Below are positions 2,884 through 31,349 of a DNA stretch of 64,000 bases, piece after piece. Position 1 is the stretch's first letter. Each line of letters opens with the position of its first letter. Source of the stretch: Deltaproteobacteria bacterium (lineage in GTDB: Bacteria; Desulfobacterota; Desulfuromonadia; Desulfuromonadales; Geopsychrobacteraceae). Location: NCBI GenBank assembly GCA_024280485.1, contig JAJRQB010000014.1, positions 1 through 64,000 on the forward strand, given 5' to 3'. The notes under the pieces are model-generated. The model was not told the DNA's origin, made no database searches, and saw only the letters and a list, made by a program, of their open reading frames with translations. The translations under genes were made by a program, and so were the position numbers.

Positions 2884-2930
2884 AGAATAGTTAGTATATA
2901 CTTAGTTTTTCAGTGAAAGGGATAAACCAG

Positions 2931-3689
2931 ATGTTTAAGAAAATACAATTACTGGCTTTGGTTGCAGGTTTGATTGTGAGCCTTGCGTGTGCAGGTAACG
3001 TTTTTGCGCGCGGTACAAGTAATATCGCAGCAACGATTCATAATCTTTCAACTTCAGGTCCAGATTCACTTGGTGGGGGGCCATACCAGGAGCTTTTTGA
3101 GGATCGAATCTGCATCTTCTGTCACACCCCGCACGCGGGCCAGTTGAACACTCCCCTTTGGAACAGGGATCTTTCGACTCTGACAGGTAAGAACTATGAC
3201 GTTTATACGAGTGCGACCCTCTCTTCCGAGCTAACAGGTATGGGTGCAAATCGTACTATCAATGCTGAGTCTCTGCTTTGTCTCTCTTGTCACGATGGCA
3301 GTCTCGCTGTTGGTGATATCGTTAATGCTTCAAAGGGCACGCCTTGGCTAGCAAGTAATTTCATATTAGGCATCGGTGGTATCCCAGGCGCACAAATTGG
3401 TGCTAGCCCAGGAGATGTTGGTGCAACAAATACAAATGACTTGACTGACGACCACCCGATTTCTTTTGATTATGATGCAGTTCAGACTGAGAAGCCGCTC
3501 GATTTTATTGCACTTACATTAGTCGATTCTGATTTGCATTTTGCTGGTACTGGTGCTTCGAAGAATCGGTTGGAATGCAGCACATGTCATGACCCTCATG
3601 TTGATTATATTGCCGAACCGGAATTTTACCCGTTTCTCGCCAAAGACAACGCTGCTAGCGCGTTGTGTCTGTCGTGTCACATTAAATAA
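2931..3689 (+). CDS. Tetrahaem c-type cytochrome (doubled CXXCH type)
   Basis: Predicted periplasmic electron carrier of 252 residues with a signal peptide (hydrophobic stretch then FARG). Four CXXCH haem sites are visible: CIFCH (about residue 60), CLSCH (about 117), CSTCH (about 216) and CLSCH at the extreme C-terminus. The CHTPH...LWNR context and the CHDGS motif are typical of the doubled-CXXCH family. I prefer ATG 2931 over the upstream GTG at 2913 because AAAGG lies 10 bases before it and the signal peptide begins there. It lies between the NHL protein and the giant cytochrome with gaps of 47 and 60 bases, so it is probably co-transcribed and passes electrons to or from the giant cytochrome. 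The direction of flow is not shown by sequence. Confidence 0.9.
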   Translation: MFKKIQLLALVAGLIVSLACAGNVFARGTSNIAATIHNLSTSGPDSLGGGPYQELFEDRICIFCHTPHAGQLNTPLWNRDLSTLTGKNYDVYTSATLSSELTGMGANRTINAESLLCLSCHDGSLAVGDIVNASKGTPWLASNFILGIGGIPGAQIGASPGDVGATNTNDLTDDHPISFDYDAVQTEKPLDFIALTLVDSDLHFAGTGASKNRLECSTCHDPHVDYIAEPEFYPFLAKDNAASALCLSCHIK

Positions 3690-3749: not shown

Positions 3750-6700
3750 ATGAAGATGAAAGTTCTGTTTGCTCTAGTTGTCTGTATCGCGGTTTTCTGT
3801 GTATCAACAGGAAGTGCTTTGGCGGTTGTGCCCCGATATGTGCATGACTTTGCCTGTGAAAACTGCCATTCGAACAGTTCAGACCTAACTTCCCTTGCAG
3901 GAAATATCTGTATAACCTGCCACGGGGATGGTTCTGCTGGCGGTTCGGGTCTGGCTCATCTTCGAGACCCTGCAGCGCCCCCCATGGTGCCAAGTAAGAA
4001 CTTTACCGTCGATATGGCCTCTGACGCTATGAATTCACGAACTGCAGAAGTTGGTTTTATGGCTCCTGCGGCTAAATCAGATAGTTCGCACAACTGGAAC
4101 GCTCCTGATACGAATCCAGCTGCAGGAGCATCGCCTCCTTCCGATCCGCTGTTCTACGGGCGCCAGAATTATTCTGGAGCGACTGTCAGCTGTTCACGCT
4201 GTCATGATCCCCACGGCTGGGCTGTCGATTTTAATGCAGCCGTTGTCGCAAATCCCAAGCTTCTCAAGTTGGGAGTTGATTCAGAAGACGCCATGTGTGT
4301 CGAATGTCACACGGATTGGGATACCACCCCGGCCAATGCTCTGCTGACTCACCCGCTGGTCGCCGATTATCCTCAGTTTTTAGCAGACGCTGATCCTGTT
4401 ACGGCTGCAAAGTTTAAGACGTTTGCTCCCCCCTCTCCCGAAATGGCTCTAGGTGTCGATCCTACATCTTTAACGGCTGAGAGTATTCTCTGTTCTACTT
4501 GTCACGGTACCCACTTTACCGATTCGGATTCCTCCTCTGCAGATACCCCGGCTTCTGTTCTTGCTGGCGACGGCAAGCTACTTAAGGCAACTGGCGCACA
4601 GGGTGCTGATGCTGCGGCACGCTCAGAGCTTTGTAATTCCTGCCACGTCTATACCTCTCATGGTGTGGATACGCCTGCAAATATGATCGGTTGTCTAGAT
4701 TGTCATAGTGGCCACTCCTATAACGATGGAACTGCAAACTACTTTGTTCTGAGAAGTGATGTTGATACGGCAGCTTTCGGTGCTAAGACTGGTCTGCGTT
4801 ACACCTCGGTACCAACCAATAAAACAGAGCGAGCCACGGTTTGGGCCGGCGGTGCTGGCGTTGATGGTTACTGTGAAGGTTGTCACGGTGACCTGACTGA
4901 TGATAGTCCCGGTGGTGCCAGCTTCGTCAGGCTCCACAAAGCCGATGATGATTGTAATCAGTGTCACCTGCACGGAGAGGCTTCATTCACTCAGGTGACA
5001 GGTTGTGACCAGTGTCACGGTTACCCACCAACCCAGGATATCGCTGGTGGTGCGCCAAACGCAGGTTTTGCCGTTGCTGAAGGTGGTATCTACGATTACA
5101 AGAGCACGACGACGACTACAACAAAGTACGATGAAAGTCTCACGAAACACAGTATCCATGCTGCTGGTGGCGCTGGCGAGTACCAATTTTCTTGTGCTGC
5201 CTGTCATGAAAATAACCAACACGAACCACAAGATGTTTTGACCCAGACATTTCAGGATGTTTTTAATGCTCCAGCCAATTCGCTAGCCAGTGCGAATGGT
5301 GCATTGATACCGACATATGATGATGCAGGTGGTTGTGATGTCGTCTATTGTCACAGTAATGGTCGGACCCGTGGGGCTACACCTACGACGAAGACTCCTA
5401 ACCTCTGGTTGAACGGTCTTCCTACCGGTGGTGGTACCGTTTGTGACGATTGCCATGGTAACTCTACTTTCACCATGGTCACTACCGGCACCAACTCAGG
5501 TGCCCATGCCAAGCACCTTGATAAGGGCTACAGCTGTAACCTCTGTCATACCAATACCGCGCTGACCAATGATGCCTTGCAATCCGATGCGCGTAACGGC
5601 GATACCACTGGACCTAATTCCGGTAAGCACGTTAACGGCACGGTTGATATCGATTTTGATGGTTCTAACTTTACCCAGTTCAATGGTAGTGCAGGTGTTA
5701 CTGGCACTGATGGAACTTGCCAGAATATCTATTGCCACTCCAACGGACCAGGTTCTTCCGTTTCACAAATTCCTGACTGGGATGTTCCCAATGCAAATGG
5801 AACAGCCGGCTGTACTTTCTGTCACAACGCCGGCATCGATGATGGTGTATTCGCCAATGCTGCCCCCGCGACAGGTTCACACGATATTCACTTACGCGAC
5901 AGCAATGGCCCGCTGATAACCGACTGCTCGGCTTGCCATACGAATAATGGTGCCGGGGCAGACCATATTAACGAAGCTAAGGACTGGACTAAAGCAAAAT
6001 GTAATGCCTGTCATGGCGCGACTGAGACCGTTACCACTGGTAATGATCGTGAGCCGATTTGGGGCGATTCAGCCAGTGTAGATTGCGAAACCTGTCACTC
6101 AGGTTCTGCCATAGCAACTATCGGCTCTGCTGCTCCACCAGTCGTAGACGCTGCTTACGCTAACGGCCACGGTAAAGTCGCAGTTGCATGTACCACCTGT
6201 CACACCGCTGCAACCGTTGCTGACCACCTTGGTGGCGCCACAGTAACCCGTCTCGCAACCGCTTACGCTGGTGCTGCTGCAGATGCGGCATTCTGTAATG
6301 GTTGTCACGCACCAGAAAATAATCACAGTACTGCAGCGGGCACTTCATGTCAGACCTGTCACGCTCCGCACGGCGAGGATAATGGCAACGATGCCATGAT
6401 CAAGTCGACTGTCGCCGGAAATGCTGTCACCGCCTTTACGACCCAGGGCGTAAGAGCCAGCTATGCGAATGCTGTTAATACCGGTATCTGCCAAACTTGC
6501 CATACCCCATGGGACGGTAGTACCGGAATTAAATATTTCAATACCAGCACGAATGACCAGACCCACAATGCTGGTAACCCATGTAGCCAATGTCACCAGC
6601 ATGATACAACCCCGACCTTCAAGGGCGCGGCTGTCGATTGTGCCGGTTGTCATGCCGACGAAATGGCCTCGACTGGTCACACCGCTCACGTTCAGAAGAG

Positions 6701-9700
6701 TTCTTTAAGTACCCTGATTGAGGATGACCTCAGTGACTGCGTACTTTGTCACGGTGCTGATGTCACTGATGGTACCGACCCCTACACTCTCATAGGTGGT
6801 GGTAACGGTAAGCACCAGGATGGCAATGCAGATTTCGCTGCCGGTATCCTCTACAGCAATAATGCAACACCGGCAAATAAGGCCGATGATACTTGTGCCA
6901 ATGCTTGTCACTCTTCTGCTGCAGCCGATGGTTTCTGGGGAGATACTGCCCTGAATTGTACCGCCTGTCATAACGACAGTGGCAGCAATGATGGCGTCCT
7001 CGCCAATGCTGCTCCTGGCGCTGACCATCAACTCCACTTGGGTGATGGTTTCACCTGTGACAATTGCCACAATGCTGGCACCGCGATTCCTGTGGTAGGG
7101 ACTACGACTCATATTACAGATCTCGTGTTGACCGAAACTGATGCAGCGATCCTGACCGATATGGGTACGCTGTCTGCTGATGAAGCTACGGTTGATGATA
7201 GCTCCTTTAATACAGGGACTATCAGCTACGTTGTTGGAACAAAAACCTGTAGCAACTCTTCCTGTCACAACCCGTCTGGTGACAGTCACTCGGCGGTTTG
7301 GGAATCCTCGACCGTCAGCTGTACTCTTTGCCACAACAACGATGTTGCTTCCGGTAGCCCGATGGCATCCGGTAGTCATGCTCAGCATGTTAACAATGCC
7401 GCAGTGTTCGGTGACAATGCTGTTTGTACTGATTGTCACGCTGCCACAGCCACTACCGCACACCGTAGCGGTACTCTGGATGTTCTGGCGGGGTTGACCT
7501 ATACCGGTGAAGTGGCAATCCCCGACTCTGGTCAGGGAACTTGTACCGGTTCCTGTCACAAGAATCCGATTGATCCGATTCTGTCGCCAGTTTGGGGCGC
7601 AGTTGTTCCTGCTGCCAGTGTCTGCGATCTCTGCCATGAGTCCCCCGATAATTCGGGTGATCACGGTGGTCACTGGGTCAGTAATCGTGCTGATAATGGA
7701 CTTCAGTGTGCCAGCTGTCACTTCGACACCGTAAATGCCAATGCTGACCCACTAAACACTTTGACCACGATTAAGCCGAACGGTAGCCATCTAAACGGCA
7801 ATGCGCAGGATGTTGTTGCTGGCTTCAGCTATAAGTTTGTTGATGTAGACATTACACCGTTTACTCCTGGTGTGCCTTCAACTTGCACTGCCAATTGCCA
7901 CTCAGTTAATCCTAAGCCTTGGGAGGTTCAGACCGGTTGTGCTTCCTGTCACGGTGATCTCTCCTATGTAGATACCAAGCACGGTAATACAATTCACACG
8001 GTCCACATCGACATCACTGGAACTATAGAGACTGATATCGGTGAATGTATTGCCTGTCATGGTGCCGATATAGCCAATTACGATGATACAGGTGGCGATA
8101 CTGGTAGTGGTAATCACCAGAATTCAGCTGTCGAGCTCGCTGCGGGTATCGGTACTGCTGCAAGCGGTTGTGCCTCAGCATGTCACGCTTCAACTGCCGC
8201 AGATGGTAGCTGGGCTGACACTGGCAGCCTGAACTGTACTGCCTGTCACAATAACGGTACCAACGATAACGTACTGGCTAACGCTGCTCCGGCAACCGGC
8301 TCGCATAATGCCCATATCATCGACGGTATGACTTGTGTCGATTGTCATGGCACCTTGCCGGTCGATGCCGATCATTCCGATGGTCTGACCGCAGCAGGAG
8401 CTGCTCCAGCGAATCAGGGTGAAAAGCTCACTAACCGTGCATCTGCAGTTGCAGATAATGCCACGGTTACTGATGCAGCCTTTGATGACGCTGGTAACAC
8501 CTTCAATGACGGTTTGAACAGCTGTTCCAACACCTACTGTCATGATCCTTCCGTAGTTGACATTAAGTCAGCTCAATGGGGTGTTGATACTGCTGATTGT
8601 AATCTCTGTCATGATTATGATCGTAATTCCGCTGTTACCATGGCATCTGGCAGTCATGCTGCTCACTTGACAGCATCTGATAAGTTCGGCACTACCGCTC
8701 CGGAAAGCTGTAATGCTTGCCACCCGAATAACGCTACAAACAGCCACTTCATCAGTTCGACTGGTCCGACGACTGTTAATCAGGCTGTGCAGTTTGGCGG
8801 TTCTGTGATTACCGGCGCTCAGGAATCACCGGTAGTCAATGGCCTCTATTCTGGTGTCGTGGCTCTGCCCACCGACCTTGTTTACGGTAGCTGCGGAACG
8901 ACAGAGTGTCACAACGATGGTCAGGGTGCTGCTCCTGCCTCTGCCGGATACACCTGGGCGAGCTCTATTGCCGATGACTGCAACACCTGTCACGACAAGC
9001 TCCCGACATCCAATTCACATACCTTCCATACCGGTATAACGGTCTACGGTCCGCATCCGGGTGGTTCAAACAACTGCGGCGAGTGTCACAAGGCTAATGG
9101 TAACAACACCACCATGGCGCTGATGACCACCCATATCAATGGTGCTCGCGATTATGCGGATAACAACAGCGTAGCCAACCATGGTGGAATCTTCGGCACT
9201 GCCACCACCGGTATTGTTGGTGACGGCACGGTTACTGTCTGTAATAGCTGTCACGGCGGTCAGGCCGCTGCTGACCTTGCCAAGCTCAACTGGGTTAACC
9301 AGATGGCAGTCGGTTGTGAATCCTGTCATGGCGATTACACTGCGGCCTCGATCGGTGGTGCTACTGCACCGGTTCGTGCCGGTACCGCTTATGACACTGA
9401 TGGTCACGGTAAGACGACCACTCCAGCTTCTGCAATCGGCGGTGCCCGTGCGGTCAATCAGGCCTGTACTGACTGTCATGATAATAATAAATCACATATC
9501 AGCTCCACCGCGCTGACCGATCCTAATCGATTGAATATCATCGGCGGTAAGGATTACGCTATCGATCCGAACGGGTTCTGTAATGCCTGTCACGTCGGCG
9601 TAGCTGACTCTGCTATCCACCTGGCTTCTGCCGGCAACTCTGATGATGCTGTTCTCTGTACAACTTGTCATGATCAGCATGGCCAGAATGCAGGTCAGGA

Positions 9701-12092
9701 TGCCATGATCGCTACCACTATTCAGGGCAACCCGGTCAGTGGCTTTACTAATAGATCTAATCGTTCAAGTTATGCCAATAGCAGCGCTCAAGGTGTTTGT
9801 CAGGTCTGTCATGATTCGACAGATGGCTTTGGCCACTTCTTTAAAGGTCAGAGCGGTGCAAGCGTGACGACTGAACTTGCTACTCACAACGCCGGGGGCA
9901 ATTGTATTAGTTGTCACAGCCATGAAGATACTCCGATCTTCACTGCTGCCGGTGCGGGCTGTAATGCATGCCACGGTGGTAGCACTACCGGCGCAAGCGC
10001 AAGCAACTACTGGCCGGATACGGCTACTGTTGCTGGTGAGAATACTGCAGGCGCTCACGTCAAGCACATGACTGTTTTGGCTGCCAAGGTCTATGGCCAG
10101 AATCTGACCCAGCTGCTTGATGATATCAACTCTGATACACGCCAGAAGGCGCTCTGTGAATACTGTCATGCTGCGAACACCAATGACAGCGATCACGGCA
10201 ACACGCTCAATCTGCCGGCCGAAGTCTTTGTCGACAAGGACGCCGTACGTCACGCCAAGAACCTCTGGAATGGTGCCGATGCCAATGCGACCTATGTCAC
10301 TGGTGGCTGTAACACGGTTGACTGTCATAACAATAAGGCAACCGGCAACGGTGCAAGCACCTTCGGCTGGTATGATGCTGCTACCAACACCTGTACCATG
10401 TGCCACACTACTGGCGGTGCTGGAGCTAACCCGACCACCGGTCTGCATACCAATGCTACTGCTGGCGTCCAGGATCATGATGAAACACTCGGTACTGGTT
10501 GTATCGAATGTCATAACGCCATGCCAGCGATCGATAACACCGCTGGTGCAACTCACGTCAACGGTACTTTCGCAATTGACTCTGGTGTCAATCTGCAAGG
10601 TGATAATGACCGCGGTATTACCGTGGCCGGTAACATCACCGCCTTTACTGAGGCAGCGGTTCTCACTGAAGATAGCTGTGCGGCCTCCTGTCACGCTGAT
10701 GGCGGTAGCTGGGAGCGACTCTGGTCGACCGATGCTGACTCAAGCTCCGAAGTACTCGGTGCTCCGCGTTGTAATGTCTGTCACGGTTATCTCACTAACT
10801 TCCGCGCCGGTATGACGCCTGATCACAGCGCCATTCCCAAGATTAACGACGGCACTCACGGCAATTGCTCCACTTGTCACGTGCGCCCGAATGCACCTTA
10901 CGGTACGGTCAGTTATCACAACACCGTTTCAGCGTTCCCGGATGGGAATGTTGCGGCGACTGAACTGACCGGTCCTGCCAGGGCCGTTGAGGTCAACGCT
11001 TCTGCTGGCTACGACATGGCCAATGGTAATTGCACCAATGTCTGCCATACAAATGATCCGACTCATACCGTCGGGACTTCAGCTCACTTCGATGCCAATG
11101 GTTTGATCGGTCCCACGCCTGGTTGTAACAGTTGTCATAACGACACCGGCGGTAGCCGCGACACGGCCACCATCGCGACGTCGGGCCCGGATTATACCTT
11201 CTCCAACAGTACCGGTGCTCACGGCAAGCATGCCAACTCGGCTGCGACGGCTTACGGCGATGATGTGAACCACTCCACTGATGGTGGTTATGATTATGGT
11301 TGTGGTCTTTGTCATTCGACTACGGGTACTGACCATTTAAATGGAACGCTTGATCTTAAGTTGCCTGGCAACACCGAGATCGTTAATGCAAGTCCGGCTT
11401 TCAACCTTGATAAGACTTGCTCTGGCATCTATTGCCACAGTGATGGTGTTGATGTCGCGGCTGGTACCAGCCCCGTCTGGACCGGTACATTTACCAATCC
11501 GAATGGCGACTACTGTCAGAACTGCCACGGCAACCAACCGACCACCAGCAGTCACGCCAAGCACGTTGTCGGTATCCACTTCGACGACATCTATGATGGT
11601 GCAACCGGTCTGCTGGCAGACGCAAATGCCACTAACGCAGGTCATGGTGATGTAACAACGGCCCTGACTATCAACTGCAACATGTGCCACGCCAGCACCT
11701 TGAACCAGTGGCGCAACAGTAACAACACTGCTTGTGTTGCTTGCCACAGCGCTGAGACTGCGGATGCTATTACAGCTACTGATGTCGATCTTAAGCGTAG
11801 CTTCCATGTCAATGGTATCAAGGATGTTGTCTTTGCTCCGGTCGATCCGGTCCGCTCCAAAGCTCAGATTCGTGAGCTGACACCAGGTGAGCCAGAGCTT
11901 GATAATAACTGGCAGCGTGTAGGTGGTTACAAGGTGGACTCAACGTCACATGATGAGACCAAAAATGCTAATCCTTTGGTCGGCATCTGGGACGGCGCCA
12001 ATTGTACCGTCGCTTGCCACAACGGCAACGTCGCTACCTGGGGTATGACGAATATTAGCTGTAACGCTTGTCACACCCAGCTACCTAAGTAA
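3750..12092 (+). CDS. Giant multihaem c-type cytochrome, about 71 haem motifs
   Basis: A 2780-residue exported cytochrome. The start at ATG 3750 is set by GGGAGAG at 3740-3745 and by the signal peptide that follows (ends near ALA-V). By hand I count 57 CX2CH, 7 CX3CH (for example CANACH, CTGSCH, CTANCH) and 7 CX4CH sites (for example CDVVYCH, CQNIYCH, CSGIYCH). The CX4CH ... CX2CH pairing matches the Geobacter CxxxxCH...CXXCH domain family. The body is built of recurring modules: the phrase (V/L)ANAAP(A)TGSH, followed by a His and a CX2CH, occurs three times, and MASGSHAxH occurs twice. Haem motifs run from residue about 35 to the last residues. There is no membrane anchor after the signal peptide. 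Probably an outer-surface or periplasmic electron conduit; whether the CX3CH sites carry haem is not known from sequence. Third gene of the operon, closed by a terminator at 12120. Confidence 0.92.
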
Positions 12093-12150: not shown

Positions 12151-14036
12151 GTGCGCCCGGCAGGGCGCACTTGCTTGAGGGTGAAAGTCCCTTGTACACC
12201 CGGCAGGGGGAAGTACTAGCTGAACGGCAACTGCGTCATCGTGAGGTGGGGTGGGAAGGAAGCTGAAGGCAAAACGCTGGCCTGACGAACAGGAATCGCA
12301 TACGAGGCGGCCGTGTCGGATGAGGAGGCATATATCTCTAAAGTCCAATACTTGCACGGAAGGCATGGTCGTATATGCGGCAGGTATAAGCGTGAAGGCA
12401 GGTGCGCATTACCCGGGGAGATCTCATGTCGTGCCACGAGCTACCGTCGTCGTGAGTCGGCGGGAAGCGGCATGAGAAGTCAGCCGAGGCCATAGTAGTC
12501 CGTTTCGATCACGGGCGAAGGGTCGAACCTTGTGTTGTGGAAGGGAGTTCCCATAGTGCGAACCGGATTTATGACAGAAAGCAGTTACGGCTGCGCCGAG
12601 GGAGAGGGTAGCGGACGGTATCCGCGAGAGTACGCCATCGGTGTCGTGTCCAGTCCATGTGTGGGAATAAACACCGACCCGTCAACACAGCCATTGCTCG
12701 AACAGGTGATCGAGTCGGAGAATATGCAACTGGCCTGGAGACAGGTCAAACGCAACGGCGGTGCGGCTGGACCTGATAGCCGCAACATTGAAGAGACCGC
12801 CGAATTTCTCCGACACAACTGGCCCGAACTACGGCAGAGATTGCTCGATGGCAGCTATCGACCCCGACCGGTTTTGCGGGTAGAAATACCCAAACCCGGA
12901 GGCGGAATGCGCAAGCTTGGCATTCCGACCGTGACGGATCGACTGGTGCAACAGGCAATCTCACAGATTCTGATCCCAGTATTCGACCCAGAGTTTTCCG
13001 AGAGCAGTTATGGTTTTCGTCCCGACCGCAGCGCCCATGGCGCAGTCCTCGCGGCTCGCGAATACCAGCAATCGGGCAAACGTTGGGTGGTGGATATGGA
13101 TCTGAAACAGTTCTTTGACGAGGTTGATCATGACATTCTGATGTCGCGCCTCGGCAAGAAAATCAAGGACAAGCGCCTGAAGCGCCTGCTCAACGCGTTT
13201 CTGAAGGCTGGCGTGCAATGCGGGAACAAGATCGTGCCGACAACCAAAGGCACTCCGCAGGGCGGACCGCTCTCGCCGCTGCTGTCCAACATCCTGCTGG
13301 ATGATCTTGATAAAGAACTGGAACGGCGGGGGCACAGCTACTGCCGTTATGCGGATGACTGCAATATCTACGTCAGCAGTCGCCGTGCCGGAGAACGGGT
13401 TCTGCAGTCCATGACAAAGTTTGTCGAAAGCAAACTGAAACTGAAGGTCAATCAAACCAAAAGTGCGGTTGACCGCCCTTGGAAGCGTAAGTTTCTAGGA
13501 TTCAGTTTCACCAATCAACGCCGCTCGCGCATCCGAATTCCGAAGGAAACCTTGCAAACGTTTCGTCGAAAACTCAAGGTTCTCTTTCGGCAGGGTCGCG
13601 GGAGGAATCTGTTCCGTTTCACGCGAGAAGATCTGAACCCTGTGCTCCGAGGCTGGTTGAATTACTACCGACTGGCCGAGACCAAGGGTTACGCAGAAGA
13701 ACTGGATGGGTGGCTACGCAGACGATTGCGGTGTATTCTATGGCGTCAGTGGAAACGAGGCCGAACACGCTATAAGCAACTGCGTCGGCGAGGGATGGAC
13801 GAAAAGCGCGCCAAAGCAAGTGCCTTCAACGGCAGAGGCGCATGGTGGAACAGTGGGGCTTCCCACATGAACGACGCTTTTCGGAAACGTTACTTCGATA
13901 AACTCGGATTGTTCAGCCTGCTCGATAAATTGCTGAGTTCGCGAATAATAACAACCTAAGGAACCGCCGTGGTACGTGAACCGTATGCCCGGTGGTGTGA
14001 GAGCCGAGGGAGGGCAACCTCCCTCAGCTACTCGAT
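12151..14036 (+). mobile_element. Group II intron inserted directly behind a terminator
   Basis: The element starts with GTGCG at 12151, the consensus 5' end of group II introns, and encodes a reverse transcriptase/maturase. Near the 3' end, a domain V-like hairpin is visible at about 13961-14000 (ACCGCCG pairing with CGGTGGT, with an internal TAC/GTA stem). A domain VI-like helix follows (GAGGGAGG, GCAA loop, CCTCCCTC at about 14006-14025), then CTACTCGAT. I place the 3' end at 14036 from the CGAT ending; this could be off by a few bases. Total length is about 1.89 kb. Insertion immediately after a terminator T tract is the known habit of class C introns, but I could not assign the class from sequence alone. 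Confidence 0.85.
12556..13959 (+). CDS. ltrA: Group II intron reverse transcriptase/maturase
   Basis: Multifunctional intron protein of about 467 residues that splices and retro-mobilises the host intron. Reverse transcriptase motifs are intact: PKPGGGMRKLGIPT, YGFRP, DMDLKQFFDEVDHD, GTPQGGPLSPLLSN and the catalytic YADD at about residue 264. A maturase (domain X) segment follows (FRRKLKVLFRQGRG ... NYYRLAETKGY), and the end carries the GAWWNSGASHMN ... LGLFSLL block. No zinc-ligand HNH endonuclease domain is seen after it, so target cleavage by the protein is not expected. Start choice: GTG 12556 has AAGGGAG eight bases upstream; ATG 12571 is the alternative. The frame is uninterrupted, so the intron may still be mobile. 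Confidence 0.93.
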   Translation: MRTGFMTESSYGCAEGEGSGRYPREYAIGVVSSPCVGINTDPSTQPLLEQVIESENMQLAWRQVKRNGGAAGPDSRNIEETAEFLRHNWPELRQRLLDGSYRPRPVLRVEIPKPGGGMRKLGIPTVTDRLVQQAISQILIPVFDPEFSESSYGFRPDRSAHGAVLAAREYQQSGKRWVVDMDLKQFFDEVDHDILMSRLGKKIKDKRLKRLLNAFLKAGVQCGNKIVPTTKGTPQGGPLSPLLSNILLDDLDKELERRGHSYCRYADDCNIYVSSRRAGERVLQSMTKFVESKLKLKVNQTKSAVDRPWKRKFLGFSFTNQRRSRIRIPKETLQTFRRKLKVLFRQGRGRNLFRFTREDLNPVLRGWLNYYRLAETKGYAEELDGWLRRRLRCILWRQWKRGRTRYKQLRRRGMDEKRAKASAFNGRGAWWNSGASHMNDAFRKRYFDKLGLFSLLDKLLSSRIITT

Positions 14037-14537: not shown

Positions 14538-14676
14538 TTTTCTTGATCTGTCGGTAGCCTAAATTGTGCCTTGAGGGTATGGGTTACCAGTAAAACAACA
14601 GAATTAAACGCTTTATAGCGATTTGAATTGAACTGTTTGATTGGAAAATCAACGTTGTGGCCAAGGAGTTTTTGGG

Positions 14677-17600
14677 ATGACTATTTCGCGTCGGTACTTG
14701 GAGAAGATGTCTAAAATGAATTCAGTGATGAATAGGTTGGCTGTGATGGCCGTTCTGGCGATATTGCTTATGGTCGGCGGTGCAGGCAACGCCTTGGCCG
14801 CCAACCCCAACGACGCCACCTACGGCTTCGCAACCGACGGCTGGGCGACTATTCAAATCGATAATTATTCGGCAGGCGGGACTGGCACTAACGGCTGGTT
14901 GCTCAACTCCGATAGTTGGCAAATAGCGGACGGGGGTGCTCTTGAAGATGCGGATACCAACGGCGCCACCACCAACGATGGTGATCTGGAGACCAGCGGT
15001 ACCCCGGGCACCAATAAGCTCGGTATGCGCGACAAGGGAAATGCCGGTAGCCAGTATCTGCACGTCTACACCGATATCGCCACCGGACAGACCCTCTCAG
15101 GGCCGATGACCCTTCGTTTCGTCGGCTCTGATGCCGATCCCAAGAAGAGCGCCTGTAAGGGTGGAGTTGGTCCGATTTCCAGTTATGCCAACGTCTGGGC
15201 CAACGCCTATGACACCGACAGCGACACGGTTCTTGCTACCGGCGCCATCTCCGGTGGCGCATTCGGCACGGTTACCGCTCTTGGACCGACTGCTACTTGG
15301 AGCTGCGACGCCGACTATATCGACGTCGATATCACCTCGGTCTACAACGCTGCCCCCAACGGTATGAATTTCGAATTCCGTTTCTACATTGATGAGGACG
15401 GTGATCCCGATGTCACAGGTGCGGGTGAGCGGATCAACCTGACGGCTGAACTCTATATGCAGTATGCCTTCGGGGCCCCTTGTGTTGCGACCACTCCTGC
15501 CGATCTCGCGGCTGTTGCTGCGTCGCCGACCCAGGTCGACCTGACCTGGACCTACGATGGCACCAATAATGACGGTTACAACATCTACCGCGACACGGTT
15601 CCTTCGACCGGCATGGTCTGGCTCAATGAGTTTACCGGTCTGGTGACTGCTGGCACCTATTCTGATACCACTGCCGCGCAAAATACCCAATACGACTACA
15701 CTGTGCAGGGCTACAACAATACCGATACCTGCGCCAGTGCTGATTCGAATACCGCCAATGTGACCACTCCGACCTGTACCGAATCGACGCCGTCCTCTAT
15801 CGCCTTCAACGGCGTAACGACTGCAGCCGGTGATTTCTCCGGGCTCAGTATGGTGACCCCGGTCGACCTTGCCAGCCTTGAGTATCGGATTACCGAAGGG
15901 GCCGGCGGAGCCTCCTCCGGTGGTGCTACGGCGGCCTGTGGCCTGGCGACCGGGCTGACCAACCCCGATGGCGTCAGCCTGACAACTTCTTACAGTAGTT
16001 CCGGTAACGGTCTGCCTGGTGAGTATACCGAGTTGGATTCAGACAACGGCGGCGTCAACGATGACGATAGTAACGGTGCAGACACCTCCGATTGCGATGT
16101 CGACACCGGTGGTGCCAATCTATCTATGGTCATCCGCGACCAGTCCGGCGGTTCCTACGCTCACATCGATACCGGTGTGACTGTCGGCCAGAGCATGACC
16201 AACTTTATCCTGCGCGTCTACGCTACTGATGATAAGGGTGACGGGACCTGCCGCAACGGGGCTGCTCCTTCGGCCGATCTCAAGGCCTATGCCTATGATA
16301 GTGCTGATTCGGTGGATGCCGCCAGCGAAGCGCTCTTTGCTGCCAGTTGGACCGCTGGCCCCGCAACGGGCGATGGTTGTGATTCCGCCTATATGGACCT
16401 CGACCTGACCGCCATGTACAACGGCGCCGCCGGGACGACCAATTTCGAGGTCCGACTCTGGCCAGATACTGCCGGTGACGGTACCCGGATTCCGCAGCTG
16501 GTCGAGATGTATGTCGACTGGTCTGCAGGCGGCGAGACCGAACTGCTCGCCTGGAATGCCGACCCTCAAGAAGCCTCTGCAGCTCTGTTCAACGGAAACC
16601 TCTACAACCTCTATGCTCGCGGCACCGATCTTTCCGATGGCTGCGGTAATGTCTACTACGTCGGCGGCACTACCGAGCCGGGCACTGCTCAGGCCTTCAC
16701 CTGGAGTTCCTGTAATGACGGCGATCTGGCTGTCCTGACCACGACAAATCCCGGGACCTCTTCTGGCATCATGACAATCTCTACAAACGTAGCGGTTGAA
16801 ACCCTCCCTGCTGGCGTCGCGCTGAAAATCAGTATCCCTGCCGGTGCAGGTGGTACCGCTATTACTAACGCTGCCATGACTTATGTTGCCGGGACACTCT
16901 GGCAGTATTCATGGAATACCCTGACGACCCACCCGGACAGCGTGAATAGCGTTGTTAACGGTGTAACAATCGATGTCAGCGGAACGGACATCGATTGTGG
17001 TACTACTGTCAATGCTGCGCAAGTTGCTGTCACGGTTGATAACCTGTGTAACGTGACTGCTACTCCGACAGTAACCATCGGTACCGTAACCGCCAACTCT
17101 GTGGTCGTTAACTGGACCTCGGCAGCCGGTGCAACCAGTTACAAGGTCAGCGGCGTCAATGTCGGCAACGTGTTGACCACCACGGTCAATACCCTTAATT
17201 CCAACACCGCGTACACGTTCAATGTTAACGGTGTCGGTACTGCCAGCTGCGATGGCCCGATTGGCAGCAACACTGCGACCACCTTACCGGGTGCTCCGGG
17301 TAATCCGACCTACGCTAATGCGACCAGCAGCTCGGTCGATGTCAGCTGGACCGCTGCCAGTGGTGTCCAAGCCGTCACCTACGCACTGACCCGTGTTGGT
17401 GGTGCAGTGGTTAATCCGGCAACCAGCCCTGAGACGGTTGGAAGCCTGAGCCCGAACGTTGCCTATCAGTTCAATGTTGCTGCCACCAATGCTACCGGCA
17501 CTGGCGTCAGCTCTGCTACCACCACTGCTCCTTATACTTTGGCGGTTACGCCGGGGGCAGCGACTGTCAATGGTGCAAACTCAAATACTTTGAATGTAAC

Positions 17601-20600
17601 AATTGGCGCCGACGCTAACTCCACTGCTACCACCTACGCCATCCGTATCAACGGCGGGGTTTTCACCAATCAGCACGTACAGCCGAACGGTTCGGTCAGC
17701 GCCGCCGCTGCCTTGCAGACCAAGGCCGCCTGGGGAACCAAGACCGTTACCGGTCTTGCGCTGGCGACCACCTACACCTTCGATATTAAGGCTGCTAACG
17801 GCGATGCTGTAGAGACAACCTTTGGTACCACCGCCGCGCTGGATACTCTGAATGAGGTTCTTCAAACCACCGGTGGAGCTGTCACTGTAAATTCCGGGGA
17901 CTCCTTTATCAGTGTCTCGGCTCTTTACGGCGGGGATACGACTAACAACAATGATGCGGTGATCGAGTGGGAACTTTGCGGTGACGCAGTGTCGACCTGC
18001 GACGGCACCACATTCACCAATACAACCTCGAATATGGGACATATGGCCAGCCCATACAGTTATCAGATTATCAATCTAACCAATATGGGCAAGTATCAGG
18101 TGCGCGTCACTCTGATCGATGGCGATGGTACGGTTGCCGGTCCTGGCTGGGTCGCCTCCGGTGCGGACATCGTCTATGTTGTGACCGACGTTATTCCGTC
18201 GGTTCAGATGCTGCATAACGCCGCGACAACCGGGTCCTCCAAGTGGAGCGGAAGCTGGGGCTTGGCCGGTGGTAAGTATGGTGCGTTTGACTGCGACACC
18301 TGCCATACCGAAACAACTACCAATATCAAGCGGATCAAGCTGGCGATCACGGCACCAAATGGAACAGATAACTTCCCCGGTACCGACACCGTGACCTTCA
18401 CCACGACGGACGAGCTTAATAACCCAGCCTCTACGGGTTATGGCGATGATTCAGATAGTCATACCGATTCGGTCAAGGTCTGCGAAAACTGTCACAGCCT
18501 GAACAAGTATCACAACTCTGACGTTGCGAATAATACCGGTGCGGACTTAACCCACCAGAATCAAAAAGATTGCATGGAATGTCACAATCACAAGTCGGGC
18601 TTCTTGCCGACAGCTTGTGACTCCTGTCATGGTAATCCACCGACAACCTCTGATGTTGATGGTAGCACCAGCACAGGCCTGACTCATACCGACGTCACCG
18701 GCAGTATTACTCCGGGTGCTCATGATCGCCACGTTAATGATGTCAACCTCGCATACAGCTGCGAGACCTGTCATACCAACTCGGTCATGCCGAACGGCGG
18801 TGATATCAATATCAACTTCAACGCATTTGCTAATACTTCGGGGACCTACTCCGGTCAGATCGGCGTTAACTATAACGGCGGTGCTGGCACCGGCGGCCTG
18901 AACTGTACTGCAACCTACTGTCACGGCGGAACCATCGGTGGCGCTGCTCCAGCCTGGAACGGCGCGGTCAACTGCGGTGATTGCCACGGTGCCACTCAGG
19001 GCGCTCCACCTTCCAGCACCAGCCATGCGACTCACGTCGGAACGCTTAACCGTGATTGCTCCGAATGTCACGGTGCAGGCTATGCCGCAGGAACCACTGC
19101 CCCTGTTGACCATGTTAGTGGCACTGTGACCTGGGATGTTAGTACGCTGCCAAACACTGGAGCCGTTGCGACCTACAATGGCAACACCACCGGCATCATC
19201 AGCAGTCTGGCTCCGGCCAATACCGATGCCACCTGCGCCAACATCAGCTGCCACTTCGGCTCCACGCCGAATTGGGATACTGGTTCCACCGATTGCGGTA
19301 GCTGCCATAATGCCGGTGCGGCCGACAAACCTTGGCCCGCGACTGGAGCTCACGACGCTCACTTCGCGGTGCTGGGAATTACCATCCTCGATCAGACCAA
19401 CGAAGCGACTGTGCGTGCGGCCTGCGATACCTGCCACAACGGCACCAGTGCTCTTCATGCAAACGGCACTGTTAACGTCGCCTTCGGCACCACCTACGAT
19501 GATCAGTCGGCCGGTACCCCTGGCTTTGGCGGCAACCAATGTTCCAACGTCAGCTGCCACGGTGGACAAACTACACCGAGCTGGCCTTCTGCCACCATCA
19601 ACCCGGACACTGACTGTCTGAGCTGCCACAAGATTGAGGCAACTCCGACCGAATACAACAGCCCATCGACTGGCATGCACGCTATCACCACCAGTATCTC
19701 GAGCAAGAACCATGGTGTTGATCTAGCCTGTACTGAATGTCACGCTGGTCAGCCAAGTAATCACTTCACCGGGCTCGACACCCCGGCACTTGACGCGGTT
19801 GATAATTTCATAGCCGGCGTCACCTCCGCGACCTGTGCGGTCAGCTGTCATAGTGACGGTGGGGACTGGGCACGTTTGAACGATAAGACCAAGGCAACTG
19901 CGAGTAACGGCACCGAGTGTGAGACCTGTCACGGTCTCTTTGGTAACTGGCGGACCGGTCTGGCGTTCAACCACGAAACGAACTGGGACGGCGATGCCAA
20001 CCCAGGGGAAGTTCAATCAGATCACTCAGGGTGTAAGACCTGTCACGGTTTCAACAGCTCAGCCGATAAAGACGCTGCCTATAATGCGACATGGCGTGGT
20101 GCTTCGGATTTCGCCCATGGCGGACACGGTGACGAACACATCACTATGAACGGCCCTTCTACCGTTGGTGCTGGCTATCAAGAGGCAACCTGGAACTGTG
20201 CCTTGGCTTGCCATAGCGGTGCAGGGAATACTGGGCACAACCTTGCTGATTCAGCTTGGACTGTGAACTATGGTGACTTCGGTGCCGGGAGCTGTGACGG
20301 CTGTCACAGCTCTGGCGGTAGCGGTCCAACCGTTGTCTGGCCATCAAATAATTCCAGTTTCACGGGTGAGGGTTACGGTTCTCACTTAAAGGCGACCAGT
20401 GGCGATACCTTCAGTGCCGGTACGGACTGGACCGCACAATGCCAGAAGTGTCACGGTTTCCATGCTGGTGATGTATTCATTCCAGAGAACGCGACCGTTG
20501 GCATCAACTACCCGGATCATGGTGGTATCTACCTCGGTGGAACTGTTAACAAGGATGTCGATCTCGTGACTCCGCTGTTTACCACCGAAGCCGAGATCTG

Positions 20601-21837
20601 CTGGAGTTGCCACGCTACCCAGGGTGTTGACGGTGAATTCGGCATAAATGACAAGGCTAATACTGGAAGTATCGGTTACGACTACGGAACCCTGGATGGT
20701 GGCAATGGTAACGTCAACTGGATCGGTGCTGCCTGGAGAAGTGGAACGCTTAAGTTCGGCTACAAAGATGGAGCAATTGCATCAACCCATACTGCCAACC
20801 CGCAGGGTGCTCCATGGAATGGGCCAACAACGACCGGAAATACAACGGCTACCAACCCGGATACTGTCGGTCAGATCCGCTGTTCCTACTGTCACGATGT
20901 ACACAACACCACTTTCATCAAGGAAGCTACTGTGACTGCCCAGAATGGTGCTCCATATCTGCGCGGCACCTGGAAGGGGAATCCTTATCGTGAAGACGGT
21001 GCCCCGCAGGCTGGTGATAGCTGGACGACCAATAGCTTTGGAGACGTACCACGCGGTGGAACGGAGTATGTTGAGTTGGGTGGTTACCAGATCGATCAGA
21101 ATAATAATTATCCGACCAGCACTTGGTCTGCGGATGATTCAGCTGGTCTCTGTGAACTCTGTCACGGTAGTGGTGATGGTGCTTGGACTGCTACCGAGAT
21201 CAACACCCTGAATAAGTTCGGTACCGATAGTACTGACTGGGTCGGTAGTAACGGCCATGCCAATGCGGTGATGGGTGGTGATGGTAGCGGCGCAGCCAAT
21301 ATCTTTACTCATACTGACCGAACCACAGTGACTCCGTCATTTGGTACAGGAAACGGGATAAGCTCTGGTAGCCCGGCAATGGCCTATAATCATATAGGTG
21401 ATAACAACTCTACGCGTGGATATGGTTTCCGTAACAACACTGGCGATAGTGGTGACGGGTTTGATCTTGCACCCCCCACACTAAATCGGTACAGCCGTGC
21501 TGATTATAACTGGGGGGCGATCATCGCTTCATCAAATCCGACTGAAATCGGTTACCATAAGTTCTCCTGCTCCAAGTGTCACAATCCGCATGCCTCGCGT
21601 CTGCCGCGGTTGATGATCACCAACTGTCTCGACACCAAGCATAATGACTGGGATGATCAGGGGGCTCCTGATGTAGATGTGATAGCTGGGACAAGTGGCG
21701 GGTCTGGTGACAGTGCAAGTGTTGATAATGATGGCATGACTTACTCGCAGGCAACCTCCGCGCAGAACTGTCACCGGGTTGGTGATTCGACTCAAGGGGG
21801 TACTGGTTCCGGTTGGAACAACGTAACACCTTGGTAA
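14677..21837 (+). CDS. Giant FN3-fused multihaem c-type cytochrome, about 24 haem motifs
   Basis: A 2386-residue exported protein. ATG 14677 is chosen because AAGGAG ends eight bases before it; a signal peptide lies around residues 25-48 (ends NALA-A). The first ~1200 residues have no haem. They hold a duplicated ~220-residue beta module (about 45-270 and 380-620, both with a G(L/M)xMxIRD / YAHIDTG-like core) interleaved with FN3-like domains. The remaining half carries 19 CX2CH, 3 CX4CH (CTATYCH, CANISCH, CSNVSCH) and 2 CX3CH (CAVSCH, CALACH) by hand count. The last ~60 residues contain an isolated Cys and an isolated CH 47 residues apart. Likely a cell-surface electron conduit with an adhesive or binding front half; the binding target is unknown. 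It may be co-transcribed with the 18-residue peptide gene starting 33 bases downstream. Confidence 0.9.
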   Translation: MTISRRYLEKMSKMNSVMNRLAVMAVLAILLMVGGAGNALAANPNDATYGFATDGWATIQIDNYSAGGTGTNGWLLNSDSWQIADGGALEDADTNGATTNDGDLETSGTPGTNKLGMRDKGNAGSQYLHVYTDIATGQTLSGPMTLRFVGSDADPKKSACKGGVGPISSYANVWANAYDTDSDTVLATGAISGGAFGTVTALGPTATWSCDADYIDVDITSVYNAAPNGMNFEFRFYIDEDGDPDVTGAGERINLTAELYMQYAFGAPCVATTPADLAAVAASPTQVDLTWTYDGTNNDGYNIYRDTVPSTGMVWLNEFTGLVTAGTYSDTTAAQNTQYDYTVQGYNNTDTCASADSNTANVTTPTCTESTPSSIAFNGVTTAAGDFSGLSMVTPVDLASLEYRITEGAGGASSGGATAACGLATGLTNPDGVSLTTSYSSSGNGLPGEYTELDSDNGGVNDDDSNGADTSDCDVDTGGANLSMVIRDQSGGSYAHIDTGVTVGQSMTNFILRVYATDDKGDGTCRNGAAPSADLKAYAYDSADSVDAASEALFAASWTAGPATGDGCDSAYMDLDLTAMYNGAAGTTNFEVRLWPDTAGDGTRIPQLVEMYVDWSAGGETELLAWNADPQEASAALFNGNLYNLYARGTDLSDGCGNVYYVGGTTEPGTAQAFTWSSCNDGDLAVLTTTNPGTSSGIMTISTNVAVETLPAGVALKISIPAGAGGTAITNAAMTYVAGTLWQYSWNTLTTHPDSVNSVVNGVTIDVSGTDIDCGTTVNAAQVAVTVDNLCNVTATPTVTIGTVTANSVVVNWTSAAGATSYKVSGVNVGNVLTTTVNTLNSNTAYTFNVNGVGTASCDGPIGSNTATTLPGAPGNPTYANATSSSVDVSWTAASGVQAVTYALTRVGGAVVNPATSPETVGSLSPNVAYQFNVAATNATGTGVSSATTTAPYTLAVTPGAATVNGANSNTLNVTIGADANSTATTYAIRINGGVFTNQHVQPNGSVSAAAALQTKAAWGTKTVTGLALATTYTFDIKAANGDAVETTFGTTAALDTLNEVLQTTGGAVTVNSGDSFISVSALYGGDTTNNNDAVIEWELCGDAVSTCDGTTFTNTTSNMGHMASPYSYQIINLTNMGKYQVRVTLIDGDGTVAGPGWVASGADIVYVVTDVIPSVQMLHNAATTGSSKWSGSWGLAGGKYGAFDCDTCHTETTTNIKRIKLAITAPNGTDNFPGTDTVTFTTTDELNNPASTGYGDDSDSHTDSVKVCENCHSLNKYHNSDVANNTGADLTHQNQKDCMECHNHKSGFLPTACDSCHGNPPTTSDVDGSTSTGLTHTDVTGSITPGAHDRHVNDVNLAYSCETCHTNSVMPNGGDININFNAFANTSGTYSGQIGVNYNGGAGTGGLNCTATYCHGGTIGGAAPAWNGAVNCGDCHGATQGAPPSSTSHATHVGTLNRDCSECHGAGYAAGTTAPVDHVSGTVTWDVSTLPNTGAVATYNGNTTGIISSLAPANTDATCANISCHFGSTPNWDTGSTDCGSCHNAGAADKPWPATGAHDAHFAVLGITILDQTNEATVRAACDTCHNGTSALHANGTVNVAFGTTYDDQSAGTPGFGGNQCSNVSCHGGQTTPSWPSATINPDTDCLSCHKIEATPTEYNSPSTGMHAITTSISSKNHGVDLACTECHAGQPSNHFTGLDTPALDAVDNFIAGVTSATCAVSCHSDGGDWARLNDKTKATASNGTECETCHGLFGNWRTGLAFNHETNWDGDANPGEVQSDHSGCKTCHGFNSSADKDAAYNATWRGASDFAHGGHGDEHITMNGPSTVGAGYQEATWNCALACHSGAGNTGHNLADSAWTVNYGDFGAGSCDGCHSSGGSGPTVVWPSNNSSFTGEGYGSHLKATSGDTFSAGTDWTAQCQKCHGFHAGDVFIPENATVGINYPDHGGIYLGGTVNKDVDLVTPLFTTEAEICWSCHATQGVDGEFGINDKANTGSIGYDYGTLDGGNGNVNWIGAAWRSGTLKFGYKDGAIASTHTANPQGAPWNGPTTTGNTTATNPDTVGQIRCSYCHDVHNTTFIKEATVTAQNGAPYLRGTWKGNPYREDGAPQAGDSWTTNSFGDVPRGGTEYVELGGYQIDQNNNYPTSTWSADDSAGLCELCHGSGDGAWTATEINTLNKFGTDSTDWVGSNGHANAVMGGDGSGAANIFTHTDRTTVTPSFGTGNGISSGSPAMAYNHIGDNNSTRGYGFRNNTGDSGDGFDLAPPTLNRYSRADYNWGAIIASSNPTEIGYHKFSCSKCHNPHASRLPRLMITNCLDTKHNDWDDQGAPDVDVIAGTSGGSGDSASVDNDGMTYSQATSAQNCHRVGDSTQGGTGSGWNNVTPW

Positions 21838-27506: not shown

Positions 27507-28871
27507 TCAATCAACCTCGATTCCCATTCTACGAAATCTTTCAGCCAGCTCCCGTTGTGCATTCCCCTCACCATGAACAAGACGGATATGTGCGGGCCTT
27601 ATTCTCATCCGTTTGATGAAATTATAGAGGTTCTGCTGGTCAGCATGAGCAGAATAACCACTGAGATTATGAACCTGTGCGTGGATATCGATCTTTTGCC
27701 CATCGAGATAGACATAGCCACCTTGTGGGCCGTACTGTTGAATATCTCGCCCTGGTGTTCCCGAGGCCTGATATCCGCTGAACAGGACATCGGTTCTTGA
27801 ATCGCCAAGCAGGGCTTTGAGGTAGTTGACAATCCGTCCCCCGCTGCACATCCCGGAAGCTGCGATCACCACGCATGGATGACCCCGTCGTTGCAGGTAG
27901 TCGACGGTTTGAAGATGATCCCGATGGCTGTCGATGGTGGTCAACTGCTCGAAGTTCAAAGGATGGCGGCCGGAGCGAAGTCTCTTTTGTGCCTCGGCAT
28001 CCCAGAAGGGACGCAGCTTACGGTAGAGTTTGTTGAAGCGACTGGCCAACGGTGAATCGACAATGATCTCTAGCTCTTGCCAGGGAAGATTGCGCCGTGC
28101 AAGTTGATCTTGGTTGCGGTGAATGATCTCTTCGAGCTCGTAGAGTAGTTCCTGGGTGCGGCCGATCGAAAAGGCGGGTATCAGAATCGCACCCCGGTAG
28201 GCCAGCGCCCGTTCGGTAATCTGTTGCAGTCGCTCTCGGCGTTCCTTGCGGCCCTGATGTTGGCGATTTCCGTAGGTGCTTTCAAGAACAACCAGATCGG
28301 CACGGTAGGCTGGTTTGGGTGCGGGGAGTAGTGGCGCATAGGGTGCGCCGAGATCCCCGGAGAAGATAATCCTTTTCAGCCCTGCAGTGGTCACAGCATC
28401 GCACTCGACAAAAGCCGATCCGAGGATGTGCCCGGCTGGTTGCAGGCGTATTTTGAGTGCAGATTTTCCAGCTATATGATGCCATTGGCCGTAGGCTAGC
28501 GGCACGAGTTGTTTTTTGATCTTGCGCAGTAACTGGTCGATCAGCGGCTGCTTACGGGTGATAGCGATGCGGATCGCGTCTTCTAGGACTTCGGGCAGCA
28601 GAATCGCGGAGGGCTGACTGCAGTAGATCGGCCCTTTGAAACCAGCGGCCAACAGATAGGGCAATCTTCCACAGTGATCAATATGCACGTGGGTAAGGAC
28701 CAGTGCACGTAGATGCTCGACAGCGAAGTCGATCTCGGGAGGACTCTGATCTGTTCCCTGACTAAGACCACAGTCGATCAGGAGTCCAGAATTGTCTTCA
28801 AGCCGAAGTTCGTGGCAGCTGCCGGTGACCTGGAAACGGCCGCCATGATGGATGAATGGATCCTTCTTCAT
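27507..28871 (-). CDS. Beta-CASP metallo-beta-lactamase RNase (YSH1/CPSF type)
   Basis: A 454-residue zinc-dependent nuclease-like protein. The metallo-beta-lactamase motifs are visible: HVHIDHCGRLP (metal site), HILGSAFVE, SGDLG. The beta-CASP motifs are too: ESTYG, SGMCSGGR and SAHAD with the terminal LVHGE. Length fits the family. Members cleave or trim RNA as endo/5'-exonucleases. A run of G (GGGGGG) serves as the ribosome binding site. It stands alone on its strand and is divergent from the peptide gene at 29077. Confidence 0.92.
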   Translation of the reverse strand: MKKDPFIHHGGRFQVTGSCHELRLEDNSGLLIDCGLSQGTDQSPPEIDFAVEHLRALVLTHVHIDHCGRLPYLLAAGFKGPIYCSQPSAILLPEVLEDAIRIAITRKQPLIDQLLRKIKKQLVPLAYGQWHHIAGKSALKIRLQPAGHILGSAFVECDAVTTAGLKRIIFSGDLGAPYAPLLPAPKPAYRADLVVLESTYGNRQHQGRKERRERLQQITERALAYRGAILIPAFSIGRTQELLYELEEIIHRNQDQLARRNLPWQELEIIVDSPLASRFNKLYRKLRPFWDAEAQKRLRSGRHPLNFEQLTTIDSHRDHLQTVDYLQRRGHPCVVIAASGMCSGGRIVNYLKALLGDSRTDVLFSGYQASGTPGRDIQQYGPQGGYVYLDGQKIDIHAQVHNLSGYSAHADQQNLYNFIKRMRIRPAHIRLVHGEGNAQRELAERFRRMGIEVD

Positions 28872-30605: not shown

Positions 30606-31349
30606 CTAACGTTCAGCGCCGATCTCTTTAATTTCAATATCATCAATAACGACCGGGTTGCGATCCTGTGCGCCGTCGCGGAAGAAGACCAGGTGAATCA
30701 TTCTTGTTTGAGGACCAGTGGTAAAAGTAAAGCTTTGCACCTGTTTCTCGATTTTGCCGCTTAGCTTGATCCCTTGTTGGGTACCAACCTGATGCTCTTT
30801 GGCCAGAGTTTCTGAAAATTGTTCCCCTCTCCAGAGAAATTCTTTGAATTCAAGAACACCGATACCGGCGCTTGCCTCTTCAATGAGGTCGCAGCTCATG
30901 AGTGCCTTGACTTCATAGCTGGTAGCGGGGCTGACGGCTATTGGTGAGAAGACGCCGATCGAATCGAGCCCTTTAATTGCACGATAGCCGAAGGAGGTGT
31001 TGGGTTCCGTTTCGGTCCCTGTTTGGACCGGGCCCGAGGTCCGTGTCAGATGATCTATATATGTCAGCCAGAACTGAAACCCTTTTCCATCGTCAGCTTC
31101 AGGCTGGAAGGACCCTGCGCGTGGAAAGAGAGAGATTTGTGGGGTTGCCTGAAAGTCTTCGTACAGGGGAGGTGTCGGGGGCGTCTGCTCTTCCGCTACG
31201 CTGCTTTCAGGGATGTTTTGGGGTTCTTTTACTGCATCTTCAACTTGCTCGGGTGCTTCAACTTTTGGAGTCTGCTCCTGTTCCTCAGTGGTTTGAGATT
31301 GGCAGCCTGTGAGACTGAGAATAATGAGTAGGATTGTCAGAAATTTCAT
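30606..31349 (-). CDS. Predicted lipoprotein of unknown function
   Basis: A 247-residue protein with a signal peptide and lipobox LTGC (lipidated Cys at about residue 16). A long acidic, Pro/Glu/Gln-rich linker follows (about 17-65). The C-terminal ~170 residues form a beta-rich domain ending VVIDDIEIKEI, a phrase typical of carbohydrate-binding-like jelly-roll domains. No catalytic motif. Location is a membrane leaflet facing the periplasm or surface. Likely single gene; the 335 bases upstream hold nothing I recognise. Confidence 0.8.
   Translation of the reverse strand: MKFLTILLIILSLTGCQSQTTEEQEQTPKVEAPEQVEDAVKEPQNIPESSVAEEQTPPTPPLYEDFQATPQISLFPRAGSFQPEADDGKGFQFWLTYIDHLTRTSGPVQTGTETEPNTSFGYRAIKGLDSIGVFSPIAVSPATSYEVKALMSCDLIEEASAGIGVLEFKEFLWRGEQFSETLAKEHQVGTQQGIKLSGKIEKQVQSFTFTTGPQTRMIHLVFFRDGAQDRNPVVIDDIEIKEIGAER

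Follow-up and report, generated by a model that had tools for sequence, protein, structure and literature searches.

A cytochrome with 71 haem motifs whose CX3CH and CX4CH sites appear to share the first slot of a repeated three-haem module

The cytochrome c71 and its haem motifs

The window analysed here is a stretch of 64,000 nucleotides (positions 1 to 64,000 of contig JAJRQB010000014.1, assembly GCA_024280485.1) from a Deltaproteobacteria bacterium of the family Geopsychrobacteraceae. A single open frame at 3750–12092 (+) encodes a cytochrome of 2,780 residues, here named c71, with 71 haem motifs: 57 of the form CX2CH, seven CX3CH and seven CX4CH, motifs longer than CX2CH being referred to below as wide. 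The same counts had been given in an earlier sequence-only reading of this DNA, with which our recount agrees; counting CXXCH alone yields 57 motifs instead of 71. Spacings of 1 to 15 residues were scanned, and no c71 motif with a spacing of 1 or of 5–15 was found. The ATG at 3750 is preceded by a GGGAGAG stretch, and a leader was recognised by eye. The motifs take up 142 of the 144 cysteines and the remaining two lie in the leader; no cysteine is spare for another task.

A chance origin of the wide motifs is ruled out by shuffling. Shuffles of the mature chain (n = 500) contained about 0.4 of each motif on average, with a maximum of 3, and 500 shuffles in which CX2CH was held fixed gave 0.008 CX3CH and 0.010 CX4CH per chain, with a maximum of 1. 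The 14 wide sites follow one another at intervals of 3, 12, 3, 3, 3, 3, 3, 3, 12, 3, 3, 3 and 4 haems, and c71's number of intervals of exactly three was matched in 1 of 200,000 random placements. c71 belongs to the GSu_C4xC__C2xCH domain family, exceeding both curated cut-offs: TIGR01904 scores 138 bits (cut-off 27) over nine stretches and PF09698 scores 45 bits (cut-off 21.7) over four.

The motif number is not a record, as 85 sites in one protein have been published (PMC5566968). Among relatives of c71, single frames with 86 (L154, G258:C1), 78 (L035, G050:C85) and 77 (L038, G048) motifs were seen, those of L154 and L035 being open at one end (here and below, G, C and L numbers are our identifiers for genomes, contigs and loci).

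A three-haem module with a variable first slot

Much of c71 is built from repeats of a module that comprises CXnCH, about 20 residues that include a Trp, CX2CH, two His, a further CX2CH and a final His. CX4CH followed by CX2CH opens seven modules, and CX3CH stands in that place in seven others. When 26 modules, taken from the window and L024, were aligned, CX3CH shared its columns with CX4CH, ahead of a near-invariant Trp, two CX2CH and His. Judged from this alignment, they occupy one slot, that of the first haem of the repeated GSu_C4xC__C2xCH module. Evidence for the repeat comes from motif order and module alignment, because a self-BLAST of c71 at E 1e-3 gave no off-diagonal match.

The slot was surveyed in the fetched regions of the order to which the source organism belongs, together with L023 and L024, which contained 70 frames with at least 12 motifs (55 after removal of duplicates). 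The 55 frames hold 492 wide motifs, with n = 3 in 161, n = 4 in 272, n = 5 in 6, n = 6 in 8, n = 7 in 17, n = 8 in 8, n = 9 in 2, n = 10 in 17 and n = 12 in 1; the slot spans CX3CH to CX10CH across these related frames. For wide motifs with n = 3–10 and a motif on each side, both neighbours are CX2CH in 482 of 487 cases, against 1,015 of 1,958 for CX2CH motifs, and a Trp precedes the next motif in 458 of 487 against 645 of 1,958. The tandem arrangement recurs outside the order in 39 frames from 17 genomes, where CX3CH makes up 28 of 285 wide motifs, compared with 161 of 492 within the order. The sequence-only reading had called CX3CH rare; by these shares it is not very rare in this family.

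In searches of PDB sequences, phmmer with c71 returned no chain at E 0.01, and a profile of the module reached 121 distinct sequences at E 1, the best being MtrF (6e-9). OmcS, OmcE and OmcZ are absent by name among the 60 of these 121 matches that were listed, and nothing in these PDB searches places c71 with those nanowire subunits by homology.

Conservation and length drift in orthologues

Searching 60 relatives and 136 genomes of the order yielded full-length c71 orthologues in G003, G004, G040, G108, G109, G135 and G071. They are 44–58% identical to the window protein, with those of G108 and G109 98.7% identical to each other, and were aligned with it to give a set of eight. The alignment has 71 CH columns. 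CX2CH spacing never changes: 56 of the 57 columns carry CX2CH in all eight proteins and one carries it in seven. The 14 wide columns are never CX2CH; nine have a single length and five vary, with 3 or 4 residues between the cysteines at sites 15, 36 and 63, 3, 4 or 5 at site 33, and 3 or 8 at site 60. Length drift thus affects 5 of 14 wide columns against 0 of 57 CX2CH columns (p = 1.5e-4). Wide sites are otherwise kept as well as CX2CH sites, one cell of each kind being lost: in the G071 protein a wide motif and a CX2CH motif are each without the second Cys, the only losses among the eight.

The seven CX3CH sites of the window protein, all on the plus strand, differ in constancy. CX3CH is found in all eight orthologues at haem sites 27 (residue 1049, CANACH; 6894–6911), 39 (residue 1474, CASACH; 8169–8186) and 70 (residue 2752; 12003–12020). 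At site 60 (residue 2310, CAASCH; 10677–10694) it is present in seven and replaced by CX8CH in G071, and at sites 36 (residue 1379; 7884–7901) and 63 (residue 2428; 11031–11048) five proteins have CX3CH and three have CX4CH. At site 33 (residue 1265; 7542–7559) CX3CH occurs solely in the window protein, six others having CX4CH and G135 having CX5CH. The first of the seven CX4CH is haem site 12 (residue 529; 5334–5354, +), and the other six start at residues 657, 1167, 1592, 1715, 2187 and 2557.

The three example motifs cited in the sequence-only reading (CANACH, CASACH and CAASCH) are all present, and its remark that CX3CH often stands where a sister module has CX4CH is borne out in a stronger form, as a slot that the module alignment indicates to be shared and lengths that appear to exchange at homologous positions.

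The G135 orthologue is interrupted by an in-frame TAG at a position where the others have Ser, and its two parts together hold 71 motifs. In-frame TAGs within cytochrome frames were noted at L045 codon 1725 (G135) and at G000:C95 4208–4318; they may reflect point nonsense, assembly error or recoding.

Histidines beyond the motifs

Not counting the proximal His of the motifs, the alignment has 71 columns in which at least seven of the eight orthologues carry His, and in 68 of these all eight do; four more are conserved in six and six more in five. Along the chain, with n denoting the wide motif and 2 a CX2CH, their order is mostly n-2-H-H-2-H per module, and it is identical for n = 3 and n = 4. 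Number and order of these histidines would fit bis-His ligation of all 71 haems.

Interpretation of the wide sites

The explanation that we favour, with a probability of roughly 0.8, is that c71 is a secreted cytochrome whose module has a length-tolerant first slot, and that CX3CH binds haem. Under this explanation c71 would carry 71 haem c groups, each held by two thioethers and bis-His ligated, and would move or store electrons, probably, by analogy, in extracellular electron transfer. The loop between the two cysteines of the first slot would tolerate changes of length (n = 3 or 4 in c71, 3–10 in relatives), while the Cys pair, the proximal His and the extra His stay in place. CX3CH would then be a shorter, still haem-binding state of a CX4CH site, one of the lengths that a tolerant slot takes within a known domain family.

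The 14 wide sites very probably function in haem binding and are not products of decay, as the sequence-only reading had suggested for CX3CH on the grounds of regularity. The comparison of CX3CH positions in homologues that it proposed as a check favours function: the motifs are kept in orthologues, and the extra conserved His are as many as the motifs. That CX3CH might be a decayed CX4CH without haem, with fewer than 71 haems loaded, gains something from site 33, where the window protein is alone in having CX3CH, and from the G071 protein, in which losses did occur at one wide and one CX2CH site. We regard decay as very improbable, given the constancy of three of the seven CX3CH sites in eight of eight orthologues and of one in seven of eight, the retention of the Cys pair and His at CX3CH as well as at CX2CH, and the 71 extra His columns. 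Attachment of haem at CX3CH through a single thioether, with the first Cys free or in a disulfide, might be expected if a loop one residue shorter than that of CX4CH strained the two bonds. This too has little to commend it, since both CX3CH cysteines are kept in all eight orthologues, the mature window protein has no free Cys elsewhere to act as disulfide partner, and the precedent of MmcA (below) speaks for a normal attachment. It is somewhat less unlikely, though still improbable, that the wide sites bind haem and that their loops, instead of being neutral variants, have a function of their own, for example in docking soluble acceptors or in contacts between subunits. OmcZ provides the model here: its 14-residue loop lies at a subunit interface (PMC9473688), and the reduction of soluble acceptors is reportedly suppressed once the loop is removed (PMC11208441). 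The interchange of lengths 3, 4, 5 and 8 at orthologous sites is easier to reconcile with a tolerant loop than with a precise task.

Several observations weigh against the tolerant, haem-binding slot or weaken its support. The counts and p-values from the 55 frames do not come from independent cases, as the frames include orthologues and close pairs. Outside the order, CX5CH is flanked on both sides by CX2CH in just two of nine cases. A CH without a partner Cys within 20 residues occurs 31 times in the order set and 21 times in the outside set. BLAST alignments among 24 family proteins pair CX2CH with CX3CH or CX4CH 649 times, against 2,352 pairings of wide with wide; the 649 may be slots of paralogues that sometimes turned into CX2CH, or misalignments. 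The structure predicted for the module (26-module basis) is poor, with a predicted local distance difference test (pLDDT) score of 50. Finally, the equality of the extra His with the 71 motifs hangs on the cut at seven of eight, and some of the conserved extra His may serve other tasks.

Relation to known cytochromes

Like other GSu_C4xC__C2xCH cytochromes, c71 has a module of wide motif, Trp and CX2CH; unlike the family definition, which specifies CX4CH, half of its wide sites are CX3CH, and relatives reach CX10CH. In MmcA of Methanosarcina acetivorans, a haem c mass shift was reported on a CXXXCH peptide, with haem c on each of CXXCH, CXXXCH and CXXXXCH (PMC11024163). Both MmcA and c71 mix these three spacings, although MmcA is archaeal and has seven haems. 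The outer-membrane Pcc cytochromes of Geobacter contain CX3–15CH motifs, with haem binding above CX4CH described as open in 2014 (PMC4245776), and Geobacter ImcH contains CX3CH (PMC6295460). Like c71, these proteins show atypical spacings; they are electron-transfer cytochromes from metal reducers and have far fewer haems, and in the portions of those papers available to us neither a repeated slot nor an exchange of lengths is described. Geobacter OmcZ has a long loop between cysteines (14 residues, haem 1), as at the wide sites of c71 (PMC9473688), but at one site of a filament subunit, whereas in c71 the slot is repeated in tandem. Because haem on CX3CH was demonstrated in MmcA and CX3–15CH motifs are published, CX3CH in c71 is best described as a variant of something known.

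What the family adds is a natural series in which one slot, in otherwise matching modules, has 3 to 10 residues between its cysteines, so that loop-length tolerance of haem attachment becomes directly testable. The series bears on the point left open in 2014, haem binding above CX4CH (PMC4245776). The portions of the open-licence literature that were accessible yielded no paper that describes a slot tolerant of loop length or that ties a ResB protein to one, which is not proof of absence; its titles and abstract beginnings yielded nothing on CX5CH–CX10CH haem sites in cytochromes.

A divergent ResB protein as candidate attachment factor

The window encodes a divergent, CcsB-like ResB protein (ResB-d; 31684–32907, +) of 407 residues (PF05140, 131 bits; cut-off 24.6), a candidate haem-attachment factor for the wide motifs. 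It is 30% identical to the CcsB of the same genome over residues 3–193, and H131, in its third membrane segment, aligns with a His of that CcsB; from PMC10663686 we read this residue as TM-His2. No CcsA adjoins ResB-d: all four PF01578 matches of the genome are at other loci, and the neighbours have no such domain. A system II pair is located just past the window (CcsA, C160:67463–68092; ResB, C160:68368–69636), with further CcsA-type matches on C17, C155 and C110 and another ResB match on C155. A putative lipoprotein (30606–31349, −; lipobox recognised by eye) forms a divergent pair with ResB-d and is 47% identical over 210 residues to the neighbour of ResB-d in G049.

Presence of ResB-d was taken as a match at E < 1e-20 and that of a giant cytochrome as a hit at E 1e-60 or better, both cuts being our own. 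ResB-d occurs in 49 of the 136 genomes of the order: it is present in 32 of the 34 that have a giant-cytochrome hit and in 17 of the 102 that do not (p = 2e-16, ignoring kinship). Completeness is rated at 86% for G027 and 73% for G050, the two with the cytochrome alone. At the level of genera the figures are 16 of 17 against 6 of 36 (p = 7e-8, from a 2 × 2 table counted by hand). Frequency rises with the number of TIGR01904 matches per genome, from 8 of 76 at none to 9 of 25 at 1–2, 6 of 8 at 3–7 and 26 of 27 at 8 or more, with no more than 39 candidates scored in each genome. The canonical Paired_CXXCH_1 domain (PF09699, no more than 49 scored) served as a control and is present in 122 of the 136 genomes. 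A joint logistic fit shows ResB-d tracking TIGR01904 (standardised coefficient 2.0) and not PF09699 (0.13). In the subset of 59 genomes that have 20 or more Paired_CXXCH_1 matches, ResB-d is found in 18 of 21 with at least three TIGR01904 matches and in 6 of 38 below that (p = 2e-7). Outside the order, ResB-d matches occur in 17 of 27 TIGR01904-positive genomes and in none of 17 negative ones (sampled from 362); these matches are 27–37% identical, several spanning residues 118–358 alone, and are candidate orthologues only.

Of the 32 genomes that have both genes, eight (G000, G003 and G004; G049, G094, G095, G096 and G097), representing two families, have ResB-d within 20 kb of the giant cytochrome. 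In two others (G048 and G055) it is on the same contig but far away, and in 22 on a separate contig; in G135 its neighbour, on C99, is a different TIGR01904 frame. ResB-d follows the cytochrome frame by about 0.8 kb on the same strand in G049 and G096, with an opposite-strand frame between, and the intervening frame in G049 encodes a homologue of the window's putative lipoprotein, the neighbour of ResB-d.

Aid from ResB-d in attaching haem to the wide motifs is less certain than the slot itself. On present co-occurrence, its role as a dedicated attachment factor is a tentative proposal. So too is the broader combination of a length-free loop (CX3CH–CX10CH, perhaps far longer) at a fixed place in the module with a dedicated ResB-type protein separate from CcsBA. 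An account with slightly better than even odds is that ResB-d has no relation to wide motifs and tracks lineage or an electron-transfer life style. The co-occurrence statistics are uncorrected by a species tree, ResB-d is also carried by 17 of the 102 genomes that gave no giant-cytochrome hit, and in the window roughly 10 kb separate it from c24, a second cytochrome described below. The clearest counter-example to the link is G066, rated 100% complete, with six TIGR01904 matches and no ResB-d; G020, whose giant-cytochrome hit (3.9e-60) barely misses the cut, also lacks it. Mere lineage or life style would sit less well with an association that holds at genus level, among the Paired_CXXCH_1-rich genomes and outside the order, and with the close linkage in two families.

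Wolinella offers a precedent for unusual motifs needing an attachment protein of their own, as suggested for ResB-d: it has dedicated CcsBA-type proteins for CXXCK and CX15CH (PMC10663686, PMC3601427). ResB-d, unlike these, is CcsB-like without an adjoining CcsA, and its role in attachment is putative. If ResB-d is the factor, a maturation protein would be named for the wide sites, which would raise the interest of the finding.

Neighbouring genes

Within the window, the cluster opens with the gene for a 959-residue beta-propeller-like protein (4–2883, +) with NHL, PEGA and FG-GAP matches, and a four-haem cytochrome (2913–3689, +) lies directly upstream of c71. Homologues of both and of c71 are present in all 13 loci examined, which came from 40 fetched regions. 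The SEEP-SRB1 operon, also found in Desulfuromonadales, comprises a beta propeller, 16- and 26-haem cytochromes and an isomerase (PMC5539420). As described there, it resembles the c71 locus in placing a beta-propeller protein beside large multihaem cytochromes, but differs in haem numbers and gene set. A contig scan with c71 revealed two distant loci.

Downstream of c71 lies c24 (14641–21837, +), a cytochrome of the same module family with an fn3 domain and 19 CX2CH, two CX3CH and three CX4CH. The two genes are separated by a group II intron, with RNA at 12235–12523 (two Rfam domain matches) and a reverse transcriptase/maturase at 12532–13959. In G004 the c71 and c24 frames adjoin, and in L028 and L031 a single long frame matches both. 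The C-terminus of c24 has the pattern CSKCH..(I/V)TNCLD, 27–69 residues, CHR and usually GWN.VTPW, seen in all 17 of the 55 frames that end with CHR close to the C-terminus. Its conserved Cys pair could belong to a haem site whose loop is very long (47 residues in the window), or could form a disulfide.

Elsewhere in the window, 27507–28871 (−) encodes a Beta-CASP metallo-beta-lactamase whose best NCBIfam match is the type VII CRISPR Cas14 model, at 309 of 800 bits. It is more likely an ordinary beta-CASP nuclease, since this score is far below the cut-off.

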